25,567 nucleotides of DNA from a virus, in the IMG/VR virus record IMGVR_UViG_3300000563_000013, positions 1 to 25,567 of that record, one strand, 5' to 3'. The notes beneath the pieces were generated by a model. The model saw only the letters and a list, made by a program, of their open reading frames with translations. It was not told where the DNA came from and searched no databases. Numbering within the stretch: the first letter of the stretch is position 1; every line of letters begins with the position of its first letter. This document shows positions 1,347 to 22,497 of the stretch, in pieces. A program made the position numbers and the translations under genes.

Positions 1347-2798
1347 ATGAAAAAAAGTGAACTAATTCAATATTTTACCCAAAACAATAAATCTGGTTAT
1401 AAAACAAGGGAAATACACGTAAAGAAAAATTTTCCTGAATTATTGGATGATATTGAAAAATATAATGAGACGTTTTTTTCTAAAGAAAAATTAGTTTTTA
1501 GTCAAAAACTATATCATTTTCTCTATGATGTTAAGGAAATACCGTTATGTGAACATTGTGGGGGTAAAATGAAATGGAGGGGTGTGTTTACTGAAGGTTA
1601 TTTGAAATATTGTTCAAGGGTTTGTAATGATAAAAGCAAACACCGAATAATGAGAATGAAAAAAACCAATATGAAAAGATATGGTGTGGATTCAGTTCTT
1701 CAAAATTCGGATATAATGAATAAAAAATGGGAGACAATTAATGGTAAAATCACAAAAAAATTTGAAGAATTGGGTTATATAATACTCAACTCAAATAAAA
1801 TTGAATTATTGATAAAACACCCAGATGGACACACTTTTACTATCAATCGGAAAATTGCAATAAATCGTTTAAATGCGGGTTGTGAAATATCAACAAAACT
1901 TCTACCAATATCATCACAAATTTCCACATATGAAATTGAATTAAGAAATTTCATTGATAGTCTTGGTGTTTCATATTATATTAATGATAGAAAAATAATA
2001 AAACCTAAAGAGATTGATATCTATATTCCATCCAAAAAAATTGGTATCGAATTCAATGGACTTTATTGGCACAGTGAATATTTTGTTGAAAATGACTATC
2101 ATAAAAATAAACATAAATTAGCAAAAAAAAATAATATTGAATTAATACAAATTTTTGAAGATGAATGGATTTTAAAAAAAAATGTCGTAAAATCAATAAT
2201 AAAAAATAGGTTGGGTTTTGTCAATAAAAAACATTTTGCAAGAAAATGTAAAATTAAAGAAGTTAACAGTTCAATTGTAAATGAATTTCTTAATAAAAAC
2301 CACATACAAGGTTATGTGGCATCTAAAATTAACATTGCATTATATCATAATGATGAGATTGTTTCTGTAATGACATTCGGACCTCAAAGAAAATCATTGG
2401 GTGCAAGAAAAAAAAAGAACTCTTATGAAATGTTAAGATTTTGTAACAAAACAAATCTATTGGTTGTTGGTGGTGCAAGTAAATTATTCAAGTATTTCTT
2501 AAAAAAATATGATGTAAATGAAGTTGTAACATATGCAGACATTAGATATTTTAATGGTGGTTCATACGAAAAAATGGGTTTTACATATCATTCAATAACA
2601 AAACCGAATTATTGGTATGTTTTTAAAGATACAATCACAAAAAAACATAGGTTTAATTTCAGAAAAGACGTGTTGGTAAAACAAGGATTTGATAAAACTA
2701 AAACGGCACATCAAATTATGCTTGAAAGAAAAATTCCTAGAATTTACGATTGTGGTAATCATAAATACATTTATAAAACAAACCCCCAACAAAAATGA
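1347..2798 (+). CDS. Free-standing homing endonuclease: zinc finger, Vsr-like nuclease, GNAT-like domain
   Basis: This 483-residue protein is likely a mobile DNA endonuclease. Residues 68-93 hold a four-cysteine zinc site (CEHC, then CSRVC). A recognition-type segment RMKKTNMKRYGVDSVLQN follows at about 103-120. Residues 193-275 resemble the Vsr/EDxHD nuclease fold: E196, then EIDIYIPSKKIGIEFNGLYW with D224 and E235, H242 and later H252/H256, ending IQIFEDEW. Residues 297-430 form a separate GNAT-like domain that is shared with the GIY-YIG endonuclease at 18884-20389. The gene sits antisense between tail tube and sheath genes, a typical homing-endonuclease location. It has its own host-type promoter and terminator. 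Nuclease activity is inferred from motif layout; the role of the C-terminal domain is unknown. Confidence 0.7.
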   Translation: MKKSELIQYFTQNNKSGYKTREIHVKKNFPELLDDIEKYNETFFSKEKLVFSQKLYHFLYDVKEIPLCEHCGGKMKWRGVFTEGYLKYCSRVCNDKSKHRIMRMKKTNMKRYGVDSVLQNSDIMNKKWETINGKITKKFEELGYIILNSNKIELLIKHPDGHTFTINRKIAINRLNAGCEISTKLLPISSQISTYEIELRNFIDSLGVSYYINDRKIIKPKEIDIYIPSKKIGIEFNGLYWHSEYFVENDYHKNKHKLAKKNNIELIQIFEDEWILKKNVVKSIIKNRLGFVNKKHFARKCKIKEVNSSIVNEFLNKNHIQGYVASKINIALYHNDEIVSVMTFGPQRKSLGARKKKNSYEMLRFCNKTNLLVVGGASKLFKYFLKKYDVNEVVTYADIRYFNGGSYEKMGFTYHSITKPNYWYVFKDTITKKHRFNFRKDVLVKQGFDKTKTAHQIMLERKIPRIYDCGNHKYIYKTNPQQK

Positions 2799-2825: not shown

Positions 2826-5576
2826 TTATATGTCTTGGAATGCAGCACCTGCCGGTGTGATATTAAATGTGATTCCAATATATTCAACAGACCTTGTTGG
2901 CCTAATTGAAATTTCACCATAAAGTTCGTTTCTTTCACGAGTTTCTGGTGTGTTAATACTATCATCCATTTTAATATCAAATGCTTCCAAACCTCTTTCT
3001 CTTTGAATTGCATCTAATACTGGGATTGCTTTTGAAAGGAATTGGTCAATTGTTGTTTCATCATTTTGTTCAAATAACAACCTAACTGCGATGTTAGAAA
3101 TAAGAACTTTAATTTGAAGCAACAACCTACGAACATTAATTCTATCTAACGCACTTTCTCTAACCTGTAATGTTTTCTGACCAAAGATAACCGTTCCGGT
3201 GTCAGCAAAATCAGCCATAGGGTTGATTCTGTTTGAATAAAGCACATCTCTCGCATCTTGTGATAAACGATATCTTGACCTCAACGCACCCGTTGCACCT
3301 CGTTGTATACCTGCTGGCGCATACCAAGGGAATTTACTGTTATCGGTAAATGCAATTGAAGCAACAACTTCACCTGTTGGTGGAATGAAAACGTTAATAC
3401 CGTTATCAATATCTCTTACTTGTATCCAAGGGAAGTATGTTGCAGAATAGTTAGAATCGATGTTTGCGATATCCAATAAATCAGCAACTTCTTTGGCAGA
3501 ACGAACATCATTTCTATCATTTCCGATTAATTGATTAATATCAATATCGGGAGAATCGATGATATATAAACTATCTGCCCTCTCTTCTTCAATCATTTCA
3601 ATTGTTCTCTGAACTAAAATGTTGTGGTCTGACCAATTAATGCCCGGAGTTGAGAACAAGTTAATAGTAACGCTTTCAGGATTTGAGTATGTTTGAATAG
3701 CTGTTTCCCAAGCCTGGAAATCGGTTCTTGGTGTTTGATTTGTAGGCACGCCATCAAAAATACCACCTTGTCTGTAAAGGTCGGTGTTTGACCTACTATT
3801 TCTATGAACATCCCATCCATCAAAACCACCTGCAGGAACTAATGTGAATTTTCTTGTATTTAATTCATTATACGCTGAAGTCGGTTGTAAGGTGTCTGTA
3901 CCTCTGAAAGTATCTGCACCACCTTCAAATTCACCAAATTCAAACGTTTTACCACTAACACCAGAATCCATATGGAAACCTTTGGTTTTCTTAAAGTTGC
4001 TTGGATCGGCTTCTTCACTAAAACCATTAAAATTAAAGAAATTCTGATTAATGCCTGTTACAGTAATTCCTTCAGCAGCATAACCTAATGGCGAAATACC
4101 TAAAAATACTCTTTGTGGTCTTTCATCAGGTAAATGTTCTGTTTTATAAAAGATTTTTGGTGGAATACCTTCTACATTATCGTCACCAGTAACACCGCTT
4201 TCAAAGTTATTGAACCAATAACCTTCAAAACCCGCAGGGAATGAATCTTCTGCAATATCTTCAGCAATTTCAAGCATTACATATTCACTTCTTAAAGTAT
4301 ATTCACCATCAACAGTACCAATTCTGTTACCAATAAATGTTGACGTACCTTTAATTAACGAACATCTTGTATATGATTCCAATACTTCAGGGTTTGCATC
4401 TGTGTCATTAAAGTCACGAATCATCACATTAAACTCACGTGCAATAGGGTCGATATTGGTAATACTAATTTTGATTTCCCTGTTAGCGGCATCTCCATCT
4501 GAAATAGATATAAATCTGAATAATCTGTCGATTTCATTACCCCTTAATTGTGATACAACCCAAGGAGTTTCAGGTGTTTTAAATTGTGTTCTATAATCAC
4601 TAAACACATCTGAATCAGCTTCAATTAATTCGGTGTTGATGCCATACGCCAAACCATCGGCATCAAGTTTTTTAATTAATTCAGGATAAACCGATTCAAC
4701 CCATAATTTAGTGTTTTTTCCTTTTGGTTTATTTCCTAAAACATTGCTAATAAAGTCCGGTGAATTCGGATTTAATGAAACTTCATATGTTGAAGGAATA
4801 TCGGGATCCCCATGTGTATTTTCTGATGCTTCAAGTGTGAATTCACCAAATAAATCACCAGTACCAACATCTGTTTGGTTGTCAATAATTTCCAATTCTG
4901 TTGCATCAAATGTTGTTTGAGGTGCTTGGTCTACAATATCTTCAACCCTACCACGACTTCTGATAACAGCCAACACCATATCTTCATATTCGGTGTATGA
5001 TTTACCAGTTATTGTGCTAACCTCATCAGTTACTTCACCTTCACCTGTTTCTGGGTCATATATTGTAACCGTGAATTCGTGTAATTCACCTTCAAAAGTA
5101 CTGTTTTGCTTTTCAAATCCACTAAAAAAAGTGCCTGTATCACCTGTCGCAGATAATGTGACACCCAAATAAGTGTTTCCACTAAATGGTACGTTTGTGT
5201 TTGTGTCAGTAGTTGTTACACCGGTTGTTGATAAATCAACACCAGCATCTAAAGTAATTGCCCACGCAGTTCCGGCATTATAGCCGCTCATACCCAAAAC
5301 TCTGGTTACATAAAGTTGATTTGATTCCTCTAAATAACCATTTGCAACATAAGGTAGTTGATATTGCAAATCACCATTTGGAAATCTTTGAATGCTTTGT
5401 CTACCAAATTTTCTTCTGAATAGTGTTTTGTCTTGTACAAAAACTGGTTCAAAAGCAGGTCCTTTTTGTGTTTCACCAACAAGACCAAGTGTGGTAATAC
5501 CAACATTTCTAGTTACAAATGTTAAATCTCTTTCCCTGAATTTTACTCCGGGAGACGTAAATACAAATTCTGCCAT
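2826..5576 (-). CDS. 18: Contractile tail sheath protein, gp18-like
   Basis: This 916-residue protein starts FTSPGVKFRERDLTFV and continues with GLVGETQKGPAFEPVFVQD, the N-terminal arrangement of T4-type sheath proteins. It ends with EISIRPTRSVEYIGITFNIT, the conserved C-terminal strand region. The segment near residues 760-800 (YAPAGIQRGA, then LSQDARDVLYSNRINPMADF) is the sheath core motif found from gp18 to other contractile systems. Sheath subunits stack around the tube and contract to drive it through the host envelope. T4 gp18 has 659 residues, so about 250 extra lie in the middle (roughly residues 120-500), probably as outward-facing protrusion domains. It has its own late-type element (5626-5634) and shares a terminator with the endonuclease downstream. 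Confidence 0.92.
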   Translation of the reverse strand: MAEFVFTSPGVKFRERDLTFVTRNVGITTLGLVGETQKGPAFEPVFVQDKTLFRRKFGRQSIQRFPNGDLQYQLPYVANGYLEESNQLYVTRVLGMSGYNAGTAWAITLDAGVDLSTTGVTTTDTNTNVPFSGNTYLGVTLSATGDTGTFFSGFEKQNSTFEGELHEFTVTIYDPETGEGEVTDEVSTITGKSYTEYEDMVLAVIRSRGRVEDIVDQAPQTTFDATELEIIDNQTDVGTGDLFGEFTLEASENTHGDPDIPSTYEVSLNPNSPDFISNVLGNKPKGKNTKLWVESVYPELIKKLDADGLAYGINTELIEADSDVFSDYRTQFKTPETPWVVSQLRGNEIDRLFRFISISDGDAANREIKISITNIDPIAREFNVMIRDFNDTDANPEVLESYTRCSLIKGTSTFIGNRIGTVDGEYTLRSEYVMLEIAEDIAEDSFPAGFEGYWFNNFESGVTGDDNVEGIPPKIFYKTEHLPDERPQRVFLGISPLGYAAEGITVTGINQNFFNFNGFSEEADPSNFKKTKGFHMDSGVSGKTFEFGEFEGGADTFRGTDTLQPTSAYNELNTRKFTLVPAGGFDGWDVHRNSRSNTDLYRQGGIFDGVPTNQTPRTDFQAWETAIQTYSNPESVTINLFSTPGINWSDHNILVQRTIEMIEEERADSLYIIDSPDIDINQLIGNDRNDVRSAKEVADLLDIANIDSNYSATYFPWIQVRDIDNGINVFIPPTGEVVASIAFTDNSKFPWYAPAGIQRGATGALRSRYRLSQDARDVLYSNRINPMADFADTGTVIFGQKTLQVRESALDRINVRRLLLQIKVLISNIAVRLLFEQNDETTIDQFLSKAIPVLDAIQRERGLEAFDIKMDDSINTPETRERNELYGEISIRPTRSVEYIGITFNITPAGAAFQDI

Positions 5577-18883: not shown

Positions 18884-20389
18884 TTATTTAACATATGTCC
18901 ATAATTGATTTTTAATGATTTTATTGTTTTTACACCACCTACTAATGGTACTTTGACTCACACCAACAATCACACTCGCATGTTTTGTTGATTCGTATTT
19001 GTTAATGACTTCATTGGTTTTTATGTTTTTCACATACACCGTTCTACATAAAACATTTTTTTGTTTTTCAGACAAACCATTTATCTTTTTTGTTTTGGAT
19101 ATCTTTTCTTTGGTTTTTTCATCCCTCTTTTTTCCCAACCAATATTTAAGAGATTTTTCACTCAATTCTTTTTTCTCAGAATCACTCTTTTTCCTTCCAT
19201 ATTTTTTTGCTTCATCTGTCCCGGCAGTAGCAATTCTTTTATTAATCCACTCATAGGTTTGTTTTTTACCTAAATGAGAACGAGACATTTTTTCAAGTGT
19301 TTCAATTGTTGGGATTGAATTTCTTCCACCATTAGTAATATTATATCCAACTGATTTGTTTGTTGTATTGAATTTCCTAATATAGTATATTTCTTTTTTG
19401 TTTAACCCATCTATAGTTGAGCCAGTGTCAATGATTTTAAATTCAAAATTATCCCAACCATATTTATTAAACGCATTAAGTAGATATTGATTATAAAATT
19501 TATTTAAATTGAACGCACTTTTATATTCATAAATACGTTTATGTAATGGACGTGTGGTTTGCCCAATATATGATTTATTATTAACTAAGTTTTTTATTTG
19601 ATAAATAAAACCTTGAATTATTTCTTGATTTTCATTTATAAAAAGTTCATATCTAATTTTACCACAATTCCATAGTTTTATTAAATTACTTAAATTTTTC
19701 TTTTTTTCATCCTCACATATATTACTATTTTTTAAATATTTTGTACCATATGTATATTTATGAAACAATCCATCTCTTTCAATGTGATAATATTGAAAAT
19801 CTGGTTGAATGTTTTTTACATTTTTAAATCCATTAGATATGTAGATATTATTCGCTTTATTTACAATATTTAAATCAGCGTATGATATGATTTTATTGGG
19901 TTTATAATCGGAAATGAATTGTTTAAGAATTTTATTGAAAATACCAACCAATATAACACCAGTTTTTACTGAAAATCTTGATAGTTCATAATCACCATTA
20001 GTTAGATTATGTGTCATACGATTACTATCATTAAACGACATAACACTTAATAGTTCGTTACAATAATAAGCACCATAATTAATTTGAGATTTTACTGTAC
20101 CTTGTATGTGGTTTTTATTGAGAAACTCGTTTTTTTCATTACTATTGATTTGTTTTATTATGCATTTCCTTGCATTCACTTTAGTTTGATTAATAAAGAT
20201 AAGTTTATTAATTTTATCTTTTATTAATGGTTTATGGTTTTTTAAATCAATATAATTATATATAATACAATTATCATATTTTAAAAGAAATTCTTCTTTG
20301 ATTTTTTTTAAATCACCTTTATTTAATGTAATAAAATCATGTTTATTTAAAAACAATATTATTGTTCTATTAATTATCAATCTTTTCAT
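18884..20389 (-). CDS. GIY-YIG homing endonuclease with N-terminal GNAT-like domain
   Basis: This 501-residue composite starts (residues 38-66) with what looks like the tail of a Vsr-like nuclease, without catalytic residues. Residues 73-250 are the GNAT-like domain, strikingly similar to residues 299-478 of the protein at 1347-2798; for example both have NEFLNKNHIQG. A GIY-YIG nuclease follows: GFIYQIKNLVNNKSYIGQTT at 260-279, R285, catalytic E333 in KKEIYYI, and GYNITNGG at 348-355. Then come NUMOD3-type DNA-binding repeats (SHLGKK at 371-376, SLKYWLGKK at 413-421) and a NUMOD1-type helix-turn-helix (ESTKHASVIVGVSQSTISRW, 466-485). It overlaps the upstream gene by 20 bases. The domains look intact, so activity is likely. 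Confidence 0.85.
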   Translation of the reverse strand: MKRLIINRTIILFLNKHDFITLNKGDLKKIKEEFLLKYDNCIIYNYIDLKNHKPLIKDKINKLIFINQTKVNARKCIIKQINSNEKNEFLNKNHIQGTVKSQINYGAYYCNELLSVMSFNDSNRMTHNLTNGDYELSRFSVKTGVILVGIFNKILKQFISDYKPNKIISYADLNIVNKANNIYISNGFKNVKNIQPDFQYYHIERDGLFHKYTYGTKYLKNSNICEDEKKKNLSNLIKLWNCGKIRYELFINENQEIIQGFIYQIKNLVNNKSYIGQTTRPLHKRIYEYKSAFNLNKFYNQYLLNAFNKYGWDNFEFKIIDTGSTIDGLNKKEIYYIRKFNTTNKSVGYNITNGGRNSIPTIETLEKMSRSHLGKKQTYEWINKRIATAGTDEAKKYGRKKSDSEKKELSEKSLKYWLGKKRDEKTKEKISKTKKINGLSEKQKNVLCRTVYVKNIKTNEVINKYESTKHASVIVGVSQSTISRWCKNNKIIKNQLWTYVK

Positions 20390-20729
20390 ATATTCTATTT
20401 AATAAAATTAATGTTCTTTTTGATATGTTGGGCGATAAAAAAAATCTATTTCTCGAATTTGTATAATCTAAGTTGGTGTTAAATTGTTCTTTAGTTATAT
20501 CAATAATATCACCAGTTTCTTTATGTTTTAAAAACCAATGTGTAATTCCGTTAACTTTAATGGTAGCTGGTGTATAGTTTATTTTTTCATCGTCATCAAG
20601 TAAATAATATAATGCTTCGGTAGCAACATAACAGTGACCATAAAGTGGGTTATTTCTTATAGGAGTTATTTTCTTATTAAGTAAGTCAGATGATAATGAT
20701 TTTTGAATGATTTCAATAATTTCGTTCAT
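20370..20729 (-). CDS. Small phage protein with Cys/His/Asp arrangement
   Basis: The start is taken at the ATG at 20729; upstream in-frame codons run into the promoter-like element. In the 119 residues, GHCYVATEALYYLL places C33 at the head of a helix, GITHWFLKHKETGDIIDIT places H64 and D77 in successive strands, and EQF follows. Cys on a helix with His and Asp on strands is the papain/transglutaminase-like catalytic order. This GHCYVxxEALY ... THWF ... IDxTxxQF pattern is familiar from phage and bacterial hypothetical proteins, but I cannot name the family. It lies just downstream of the capsid gene terminator with its own late-type element, so it is likely made late. A peptidase or amidase role is inference. 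Confidence 0.6.
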   Translation of the reverse strand: MNEIIEIIQKSLSSDLLNKKITPIRNNPLYGHCYVATEALYYLLDDDEKINYTPATIKVNGITHWFLKHKETGDIIDITKEQFNTNLDYTNSRNRFFLSPNISKRTLILLNRIYEKIDN

Positions 20730-20747
20730 GTTATATATGTGTTTATG

Positions 20748-20756
20748 CATAAATAC
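20748..20756 (-). promoter_or_regulatory. Variant late-type element GTATTTATG
   Basis: The minus strand reads GTATTTATG, one base off the usual form, 18 bases before the ATG at 20729. On the plus strand it would only transcribe antisense to the capsid gene. Confidence 0.4.
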
Positions 20757-20770
20757 GTACAAAGATAAAA

Positions 20771-20797
20771 AAAAGGGTTGAAAAATCCAACCCTTTT
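20771..20797 (-). terminator. Terminator after major capsid gene
   Basis: AAAAGGGTTG (20771-20780) pairs with CAACCCTTTT (20788-20797), a 10-pair stem with a 7-base loop. On the minus strand it runs into eight T. It lies 20 bases after the capsid stop codon and separates it from the next late unit. Confidence 0.85.
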
Positions 20798-20817: not shown

Positions 20818-22497
20818 TTATCTCAAATCACCAATACCAAATGTTTGCAATCCATCGCAGAAGATACGTCCGTAGTAACGGTTAAGAACCATTTTCTTAG
20901 CGTAACGTGTCATAATACCACGAATCGGAGTGAAATCAAATGGGTTGTACATTACAGGAGTTAACTGCATAGGTACATACGGTGCGTATATGTAACCGGT
21001 TTCCAAGATAGAAGTACCTTTATGTCCAATTAAAACGGTGTTTGCAGGAGCATAAGGGTCACGATATACTTGGTAACGACCACTCAACGTACCGATTTTC
21101 TCAATACCCATATTATATTTGTCCTGTTCTGGATGAGCGTTAGATACGTGGAAGTATTCTAAGTCATCAAATACAGCACTAACTTCAGGAGAAACCACTA
21201 CCCAAGAAGCACCACCACGAAGGGTTGATTTGTGAATTTGAGCAGAAATTTGGTTAATCTTGGTGATTAACGTCTGGTTCCAGTCCTTCTGAACACCGTG
21301 ATAAGTGTTAGTTTGCTTACGCAATCCGTTGTAGTCCCAACGAGTTGTCCAAGCAGCACCTCTTCTAAGGTCACGCAAGATTTCACGGTCAATTTCAGCA
21401 GCCATTTGTTCTGAAAGAAGAGCGGTTAACTCAGCTTCAGCGTCAATGTTGTGGAATGCACTAACGTCTTGTGCTAATTCAGGAGTCCAAGCAGCACGCA
21501 TTTTACGAGTTTCAACAGTAACAGTAACTTGATCCAATTGGAAAGTTACCTCTGCCATACGGCTGTCTTCTTCAAGGTCATCATATACCCTGTAAGATGC
21601 TGTGAATGTTGTTCCAGTATCACCAGTCAATGCTTCATAACCATCAGTACCAGGATATGTTAAGTCAACATTAAGAAGGATTTCTCCTTGTCTGTTAACA
21701 ATTGCCTGACCATATTTTTGAACTTTCACGTGGAAAGGAACTGGTTTACCAGCATCAATGCTATACTTATCGTAAGCAGCAGGAGCATTCAAGTCGTTAT
21801 CGGCAGTAAGCCTCAAACCAGCCAAGAAACTTTCGGTATCAATTGGAGTACCTGCTGGTCCAACCAATCTACCGTCATCAGTAGTACTAAAACCATCAAG
21901 TTTAACAGTAATGTACTTGTCACCAATTACACCATCTTCAACTGTAGTTGCACCAGTAATTATTTCGAAACTACCTTTTGAACGATCAAAAAGACCTTCA
22001 CCTTCTTCATCGTATTCTGTTGCGTAAAACGCATCATATAATGAACGTTCTTCAAAGCGAGTTTTACCACTTGCTGGTGTGCTTGCGGCGTTACGATACG
22101 CACCATCAGGTGAAGTATGTTTGTTACCGTCAATGTGTGTGTTATCTCTGTCTTGTACTCTAACACTAGCTTTTGGGTTGATGTAATACAATTTACCCAA
22201 AGGCAAGTTCAATGCCTGTACAGATACGATATCATTTGCCAATAATTTAGCAAATACCCTGCGAATTACTGGAAACGCAACAGTCTCAAACTGACCAGAA
22301 CTTGCAGAGTCGGTTGACTCATTGATCATATGAGAAAGCTGGTTCTCGAACAATTGAGCGCAGTTTTCTTTAACATTACCTTCAAGACCTTCAAGCAAAC
22401 CTAATTTTTCCCAACGGCTTGTGGTAATTTCTCTTTGTTCACGAAGTTGTTTTAAACCAATGTTACCAACTTCGCCACTTTCAACTAAAAATCCCAT
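20818..22497 (-). CDS. 23: Major capsid protein, gp23-like
   Basis: At 559 residues this is close to the T4 gp23 precursor (about 520). Residues 50-105 follow gp23 order: a FENQLSHMINESTDSASSGQ segment like T4 ENQ...INESTG, then VAFPVIRRVFAKLLANDIVS and VQALNLPLGKLYYI. The C-terminal third has RAAWTPELAQDVSAFHNIDA, DREILRDLRRGA, and the HKG/YAPYVPMQLTP region typical of HK97-fold T4-type capsids. Possible prohead protease cleavage sites are LVE|S after residue 6 and LLE|G after residue 36, fitting the (L/I)xE rule. The gene is visibly richer in G and C at third positions than its neighbours, as expected for a highly expressed gene. It follows the scaffold gene by 26 bases. Confidence 0.95.
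   Translation of the reverse strand: MGFLVESGEVGNIGLKQLREQREITTSRWEKLGLLEGLEGNVKENCAQLFENQLSHMINESTDSASSGQFETVAFPVIRRVFAKLLANDIVSVQALNLPLGKLYYINPKASVRVQDRDNTHIDGNKHTSPDGAYRNAASTPASGKTRFEERSLYDAFYATEYDEEGEGLFDRSKGSFEIITGATTVEDGVIGDKYITVKLDGFSTTDDGRLVGPAGTPIDTESFLAGLRLTADNDLNAPAAYDKYSIDAGKPVPFHVKVQKYGQAIVNRQGEILLNVDLTYPGTDGYEALTGDTGTTFTASYRVYDDLEEDSRMAEVTFQLDQVTVTVETRKMRAAWTPELAQDVSAFHNIDAEAELTALLSEQMAAEIDREILRDLRRGAAWTTRWDYNGLRKQTNTYHGVQKDWNQTLITKINQISAQIHKSTLRGGASWVVVSPEVSAVFDDLEYFHVSNAHPEQDKYNMGIEKIGTLSGRYQVYRDPYAPANTVLIGHKGTSILETGYIYAPYVPMQLTPVMYNPFDFTPIRGIMTRYAKKMVLNRYYGRIFCDGLQTFGIGDLR

Follow-up and report, generated by a model that had tools for sequence, protein, structure and literature searches.

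Mom-like GNAT and GIY-YIG nuclease domains combined in a probable free-standing homing endonuclease gene at a phage capsid locus

The window, by which we mean the whole stretch of 25,567 nucleotides analysed here, was drawn from a virus record of 29,691 bases. Its minus strand carries a gp23-like major capsid protein gene (20818..22497; matched by 2531 phage records) with an endonuclease locus immediately downstream. The capsid gene is followed by an intrinsic terminator, recognised by reading the sequence as a GGGTTG-loop-CAACCC hairpin plus T-run (20775..20793, minus), which stands just upstream of a Bacteroidota-type -7 promoter element, TATCTTTG (20760..20767, minus), located directly after it. 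A small ORF, phrog_12251 (20370..20762, minus), lies between the capsid and endonuclease genes and overlaps the start of the latter by 20 nt, an arrangement that suggests translational coupling; the same small ORF accompanies many of the related chimeras. The endonuclease gene itself (18884..20389, minus) is an ORF of 501 aa, a hybrid free-standing homing endonuclease gene that joins a Mom-like GNAT domain to a GIY-YIG domain. Our comparison protein is encoded on the plus strand (1347..2798), between the tail tube (780-1268) and sheath (2826-5576) genes; it is an EDxHD/Vsr-like homing endonuclease of 483 aa with a C-terminal Mom-like domain.

Four segments can be recognised in the hybrid protein, all on the minus strand. 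Residues 1-66 (20192..20389) probably constitute an emptied EDxHD/Vsr core without catalytic residues, as judged from the order of secondary-structure elements and from the alignment of a relative (L006c). Residues 67-252 (19634..20191) form the Mom-like GNAT-fold domain, identified by its top PDB match, phage Mu Mom (8bv8), and by conservation, and residues 260-344 (19358..19612) form the GIY-YIG nuclease domain (Pfam PF01541 and TIGR01453). Residues 416-484 (18938..19144) make up a DNA-binding tail resembling NUMOD3 and NUMOD1/HTH modules, in which the NUMOD3, NUMOD1 and HTH matches all fall below the Pfam cut-offs. In the GIY-YIG half, TIGR01453, a group I intron endonuclease subfamily, matches residues 260-495 (91.2 bits against a cut-off of 56.05, E=9e-26), the Pfam domain scores 26.7 bits against a cut-off of 22.6 (E=7e-6), and the catalytic Tyr, Arg, Glu and Asn are all present, with columns Y7, Y18, G20, R29, E77 and N94 invariant in an alignment of 12 relatives (A5). 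A first search returned four full-length relatives of the hybrid protein, and the domain tree described below raised the family to at least 21 non-identical proteins, hereafter hefGNAT-GIY, 'hefGNAT' being our name for the form that the domain takes in EDxHD (Hef-like) enzymes and in the hybrid protein of the window. Two chimeras (L128 2206-4479 and L134 2221-4137) carry an added C-terminal extension of 130-250 residues, which in L134 gives a weak match to an HTH-type Pfam family.

An earlier note on this DNA, made by eye, had aligned residues 73-250 of the GIY-YIG protein with residues 299-478 of the Vsr-like protein, and the homology withstands statistical scrutiny. BLASTP aligns residues 61-200 of the former with 287-424 of the latter at 40% identity and 61% positives (93.6 bits, E=1e-24), and the Smith-Waterman score of the pair is 276, against 60.6 +/- 10.4 and a maximum of 100 in 300 shuffles, so that chance similarity is excluded on both counts. 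The remainder of the proposed alignment, as far as its CG..(K/R)Y end, is covered by PHROG 3339, a homing endonuclease family whose extreme C-terminus (340-533 of 536) matches hybrid residues 52-249 with E=5.8e-42. Every motif quoted for the shared region was found in the sequences.

The shared region had been described as GNAT-like, a description that structure prediction both bears out and sharpens to Mom-like. An AlphaFold2 model of hybrid residues 1-256, made with 77 window and viral sequences as input, has a mean pLDDT of 93.6. The solved structure it resembles most is that of phage Mu Mom, an enzyme that modifies adenine in DNA (8bv8; E=3.6e-7, probability 1.00, TM-score 0.46-0.52, at about 15% sequence identity), and many GNAT acetyltransferases come next; Mom is likewise the first PDB match of the Vsr-like protein model. 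At the sequence level, the Pfam Mom family PF25680 is matched by 28 of 65 EDxHD relatives (best 1e-8) and Acetyltransf_1 by 16 of the 65, and the hybrid protein of the window has no match to PF25680 at E<=1. When profiles of the hef-type domain and the canonical Mom module were compared (hhalign), the result was weak, and PDB sequences searched with the N-terminal profile of the Mom-GIY proteins described below yielded no match. Conservation analysis shows R74, F89, H94, Q96, R138, G149, Y183 and G243 to be invariant and D172 nearly so; H94, R138, D172 and Y183 align with H58, R111, D149 and Y159 of Mu Mom. The S124A mutant of Mu Mom is labelled inactive in the PDB, and Ser124 lacks a clear counterpart in the hef-type domain, where the alignment is ambiguous; we accordingly make no claim that the catalytic Ser124 of Mom was lost in the chimera. 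Four further residues, R174, R208, K216 and D241, are nearly invariant in EDxHD relatives and altered in chimeras, a change that could reflect loss of an activity. That the Mom-like domain of the hybrid protein still catalyses DNA-base modification is possible but, in our estimate, less likely than not, and we rate a purely DNA-binding role about the same.

The 35 residues preceding the shared region had been taken for the non-catalytic end of a Vsr-like domain, and three comparisons support this reading. In predicted models, the elements of the hybrid (E2-6, E9-13, H26-35, E40-44, H46-51 and H53-64) follow the same order as E122-128, E133-138, H152-162, E166-171, H172-177 and H179-190 of the EDxHD fold, as read from the model of the window's Vsr-like protein (P0002); the first helix and strand and the catalytic loop of that model are absent from the chimera. 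The relative L006c aligns over residues 25-251 with residues 308-540 of an EDxHD enzyme (L004e) at 44.7% identity over 235 aa, and PHROG 559 covers its residues 33-257. The N-terminal piece alone gave no significant hhalign match to the Vsr region, and for this reason we grade the remnant reading as probable, with more trust in residues ~33-66 than in 1-32. A Vsr profile matched none of the chimeras, and the first 66 residues of the chimera contain none of the catalytic motifs (E.D, E.NG..H, H and FEDEW) that EDxHD relatives keep invariant or almost so. The hybrid protein is a descendant of the EDxHD/Vsr-like family, yet no longer one of its members. The nuclease part of the window's Vsr-like protein, by comparison, finds the reference EDxHD catalytic domain of I-Bth0305I (3r3p) as a structure match, and the sequence profile of the protein also matches 3r3p (E=7e-6).

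In a tree of 115 domain sequences, all hefGNAT-GIY chimeras form one clade (SH-aLRT 98) within the EDxHD endonucleases of the capsid-gene site. The results support the proposal that fusion of a GIY-YIG module to a broken Vsr-like endonuclease swapped the nuclease and kept the accessory domain. In the tree, the shared domain goes back to a capsid-site EDxHD (Vsr-like) endonuclease as donor. The window's own Vsr-like protein is ruled out as the donor, as it sits in the tail-gene branch, far from the chimeras. Across the tree, the site label of the EDxHD enzymes (capsid versus tail tube/sheath) changes 7 times, compared with 20.9 times in shuffles (minimum 16, n=200). For the GIY-YIG half, a quick tree hinted at repeated independent exchange between hef-type and canonical Mom-type modules, a single group being recovered in 0% of bootstrap trees; an AU test did not reject a single hef clade (p=0.104), and we therefore claim one exchange only. 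A sporadic assembly artefact is ruled out as the source of the fusion by the presence of the full fusion on many independent contigs together with purifying selection.

Wherever the contig extends far enough, essentially every chimera has the capsid gene as its neighbour. We surveyed 65 contigs in which a related capsid gene is followed by 1.5 kb or more of sequence: recognised endonuclease types were absent at 26 of these loci, and the occupied ones carry hefGNAT-GIY, Mom-GIY, EDxHD-hefGNAT, GIY alone, or tandem pairs. Among the tandem arrangements, EDxHD-hefGNAT precedes Mom-GIY in L244 and hefGNAT-GIY in L249, and in L262 an unfused GIY precedes EDxHD-hefGNAT; such tandem endonuclease genes are a plausible source of the fusion. 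Downstream of another capsid gene (L267), a frameshift splits the chimera into hefGNAT and GIY-YIG frames. The sequence TAnnTTTG, taken to be a -7 promoter element of the kind known in Bacteroidota, lies directly behind the terminator of the capsid gene in 18 of 22 GIY-type alleles and in one of the 17 empty sites (p=2e-6, Fisher test), a distribution suggesting that the endonuclease element brings its own promoter. Because of this element, and because a close relative with an 80% identical domain (L087) lies in a Bacteroidales bin, the hosts of these related T4-like phages are probably Bacteroidota.

The earlier note had called for a survey of the domain with other nuclease types, and Mom-family domains prove to be paired with three of them: EDxHD, GIY-YIG and HNH. 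The same GIY-YIG half, with a common 5' leader, occurs at the same locus with canonical Mom (PF25680, E=7e-22) in place of hefGNAT (carriers L118, L123, L126, L129, L131-L133 and L138); one carrier, L129, has two different Mom-GIY genes in tandem. In more distant phages (L392, L393, L399, L402, L324 and L329), canonical Mom with an N-terminal endonuclease VII/HNH-like nuclease stands behind the capsid gene. The domain is also found without a working nuclease. In L405 (2686-3693), Mom is joined to an N-terminal HNH-like domain that, inspected by eye, apparently lacks the catalytic histidines, with a tail-tube gene adjacent. A chromosomal protein of Sphingobacteriaceae (for example L099 2743-3540, L101, L102 and L186-L208) combines a decayed Vsr part with a conserved hefGNAT domain; it is present in 70 of 151 genomes sampled, almost always in single copy, and lies within a few kb of miaA at 24 of the 26 loci examined. 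This stand-alone protein looks like a domesticated homing endonuclease.

All modules of the hybrid protein are maintained, each under purifying selection. Between the window and L087, dN/dS (Nei-Gojobori) is 0.28 for the remnant, 0.14 for the GNAT domain, 0.08 for the GIY-YIG domain and 0.17 for the tail; other pairs gave similar values, with 0.12-0.30 for the GNAT segment, all approximate given the high dS. A selected, portable function of the accessory domain, as first proposed, is favoured by this selection on every segment, and its portability is wider than had been supposed, extending over EDxHD, GIY-YIG and HNH partners and persisting after nuclease loss. We consider it likely, with a probability of roughly 0.7, that the gene encodes a free-standing homing endonuclease behind the capsid gene, produced by a one-time fusion of an EDxHD-derived Mom-like GNAT domain with a GIY-YIG nuclease, and that its Mom-like part acts on DNA. 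The homology, the fold, the single origin, the locus, the purifying selection and the repeated pairing are computational results; we infer DNA cutting, homing and the direction of transfer for the hybrid endonuclease along the following lines. A capsid-site EDxHD homing endonuclease would have lost its catalytic core and kept its Mom-like GNAT domain, and this domain would then have been fused to a GIY-YIG nuclease that brought a DNA-binding tail along. When a phage without the gene infects the same cell, the GIY-YIG module and tail would cut its capsid region, and the endonuclease gene would be copied into the cut genome by repair. Our leading idea for the Mom-like domain is that it may be, or descend from, a module that acylates DNA bases and thereby marks the surroundings of the target; one protein would then both modify and cut DNA.

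What the Mom-like domain contributes can be explained in several ways. Free-standing enzymes of T4 cut hundreds to thousands of bases away from their own genes (PMC2988022), and insertion alone therefore leaves the target intact; a modification domain could serve the self-protection of its carrier. One extension of this idea is a class of mobile genes for self-marking homing endonucleases: a base-acylating domain of Mom type would form a functional unit with an exchangeable EDxHD, GIY-YIG or HNH nuclease, and modification would spare the carrier's DNA or the copied target. We regard this generalisation as somewhat unlikely. A little less doubtful, if still short of probable, is that the Mom-like GNAT domain is now purely a DNA-binding or targeting module that steers any attached nuclease to the capsid region, making the nuclease exchangeable. 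Such a role would fit the way in which the domain tree tracks genomic site (7 changes against 20.9), the retention of the chimeras at the capsid site as in their EDxHD relatives, the lack of a clear Ser124 counterpart and the alteration of several residues conserved in EDxHD enzymes. However, vertical inheritance at one site would produce the same correlation between site and tree, and the same GIY-YIG half at the same site also carries a different N-terminal module, canonical Mom. Nor does targeting alone explain the persistence of the domain in Sphingobacteriaceae and L405, where no working nuclease accompanies it; because of this persistence, and because the domain is paired with three nuclease folds, we argue for a function beyond targeting.

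The recurrence of Mom-like domains with three nuclease types could be expected of a weapon resembling restriction-modification, in which Mom shields the phage's own DNA and the nuclease attacks that of the host or of rivals, as has been predicted for the Mom-REase fusions of jumbo phages (PMC7824862). Yet the tight attachment to one slot, the gene-free alleles and the tandem endonucleases found there resemble homing rather than a defence cassette, none of the PADLOC families matched convincingly, and GIY-YIG proteins of the TIGR01453 type are classic homing enzymes, all of which makes us think the weapon reading unlikely. The fusions might finally be recombination by-products at a crowded endonuclease hot spot, the Mom-like domain having no retained function in the GIY-YIG protein. 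The tandem endonucleases at the locus (L244, L249, L262 and L267) do make accidental fusion likely, but the GNAT segment is under purifying selection (dN/dS 0.12-0.30), the architecture is kept in 21 diverged family members and the pairing recurs with other partners, leaving this explanation quite improbable. A homing endonuclease whose Mom-like part acts on DNA is the reading we retain. At one and the same phage locus, a fold resembling that of a DNA-modifying enzyme is joined to nucleases of three unrelated folds, and it outlives the nuclease. This offers a testable case of base modification linked to homing, and the natural swaps (the same nuclease with different Mom-like modules, the same module with different nucleases) provide a means to separate targeting, protection and cutting. 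Self-marking, if true, could help to explain how free-standing homing enzymes with distant cut sites spare their own genome.

Several known systems come close to this architecture. Mu Mom (8bv8; PF25680) likewise has a GNAT fold, with His, Arg, Asp and Tyr positions that align with those of the hybrid, but it is a stand-alone protein with Ser124, whereas the domain in the window is fused and its Ser124 counterpart is not clear. The Hef-like/EDxHD homing endonucleases (phrog_3339; I-Bth0305I, 3r3p) are the source of the accessory domain and probably of residues ~33-66; in contrast to them, the hybrid has no EDxHD nuclease and carries the domain at its N-terminus rather than its C-terminus. The T4 Seg-type and I-TevI-type (TIGR01453) enzymes share with it a GIY-YIG domain and a NUMOD/HTH-like tail, a free-standing gene and a capsid-gene neighbour, T4 segD lying between genes 23 and 24 (PMC2988022); the window protein differs from them in its additional Mom-like GNAT domain, some 190 residues long and placed at the N-terminus. 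Domain shuffling among homing endonucleases is established from the chimeric nuclease Odn and from ICP1 and its relatives (PMC8263062, PMC10448857), which likewise show recombination with unrelated DNA-acting domains; there the partners are RepA_N or CapR DNA-binding domains, whereas here a Mom-like module occurs with nucleases of several folds.

A literature search for GNAT or Mom domains with homing endonucleases, incomplete in coverage, found no description of a GIY-YIG or HNH fusion, and among 50,697 records of isolate phages none covers 80% of a hefGNAT-GIY or Mom-GIY protein; the GIY-YIG and HNH partners of Mom-like domains and the exchange of modules at the capsid site appear to be new. 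The closest precedent comes from jumbo phages, in which Mom-family domains are fused to REase-fold nucleases, an arrangement interpreted as restriction-modification (PMC7824862). These fusions likewise combine a Mom-like GNAT domain with a nuclease, and neither GIY-YIG nor homing is mentioned for them, whereas the window protein has a GIY-YIG nuclease, an emptied REase-fold core and a fixed capsid locus. One such phage, PA5oct, is described as having five momylating enzymes (PMC7824862), and our search of phage records matched five places in PA5oct; the five enzymes are probably the EDxHD relatives found there. On another contig, a helicase gene adjoining endonucleases (L004 7959-9998) contains an apparent intein-like insertion (VDE-CLPYKTYIS ... 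ITHNC-QDIN).
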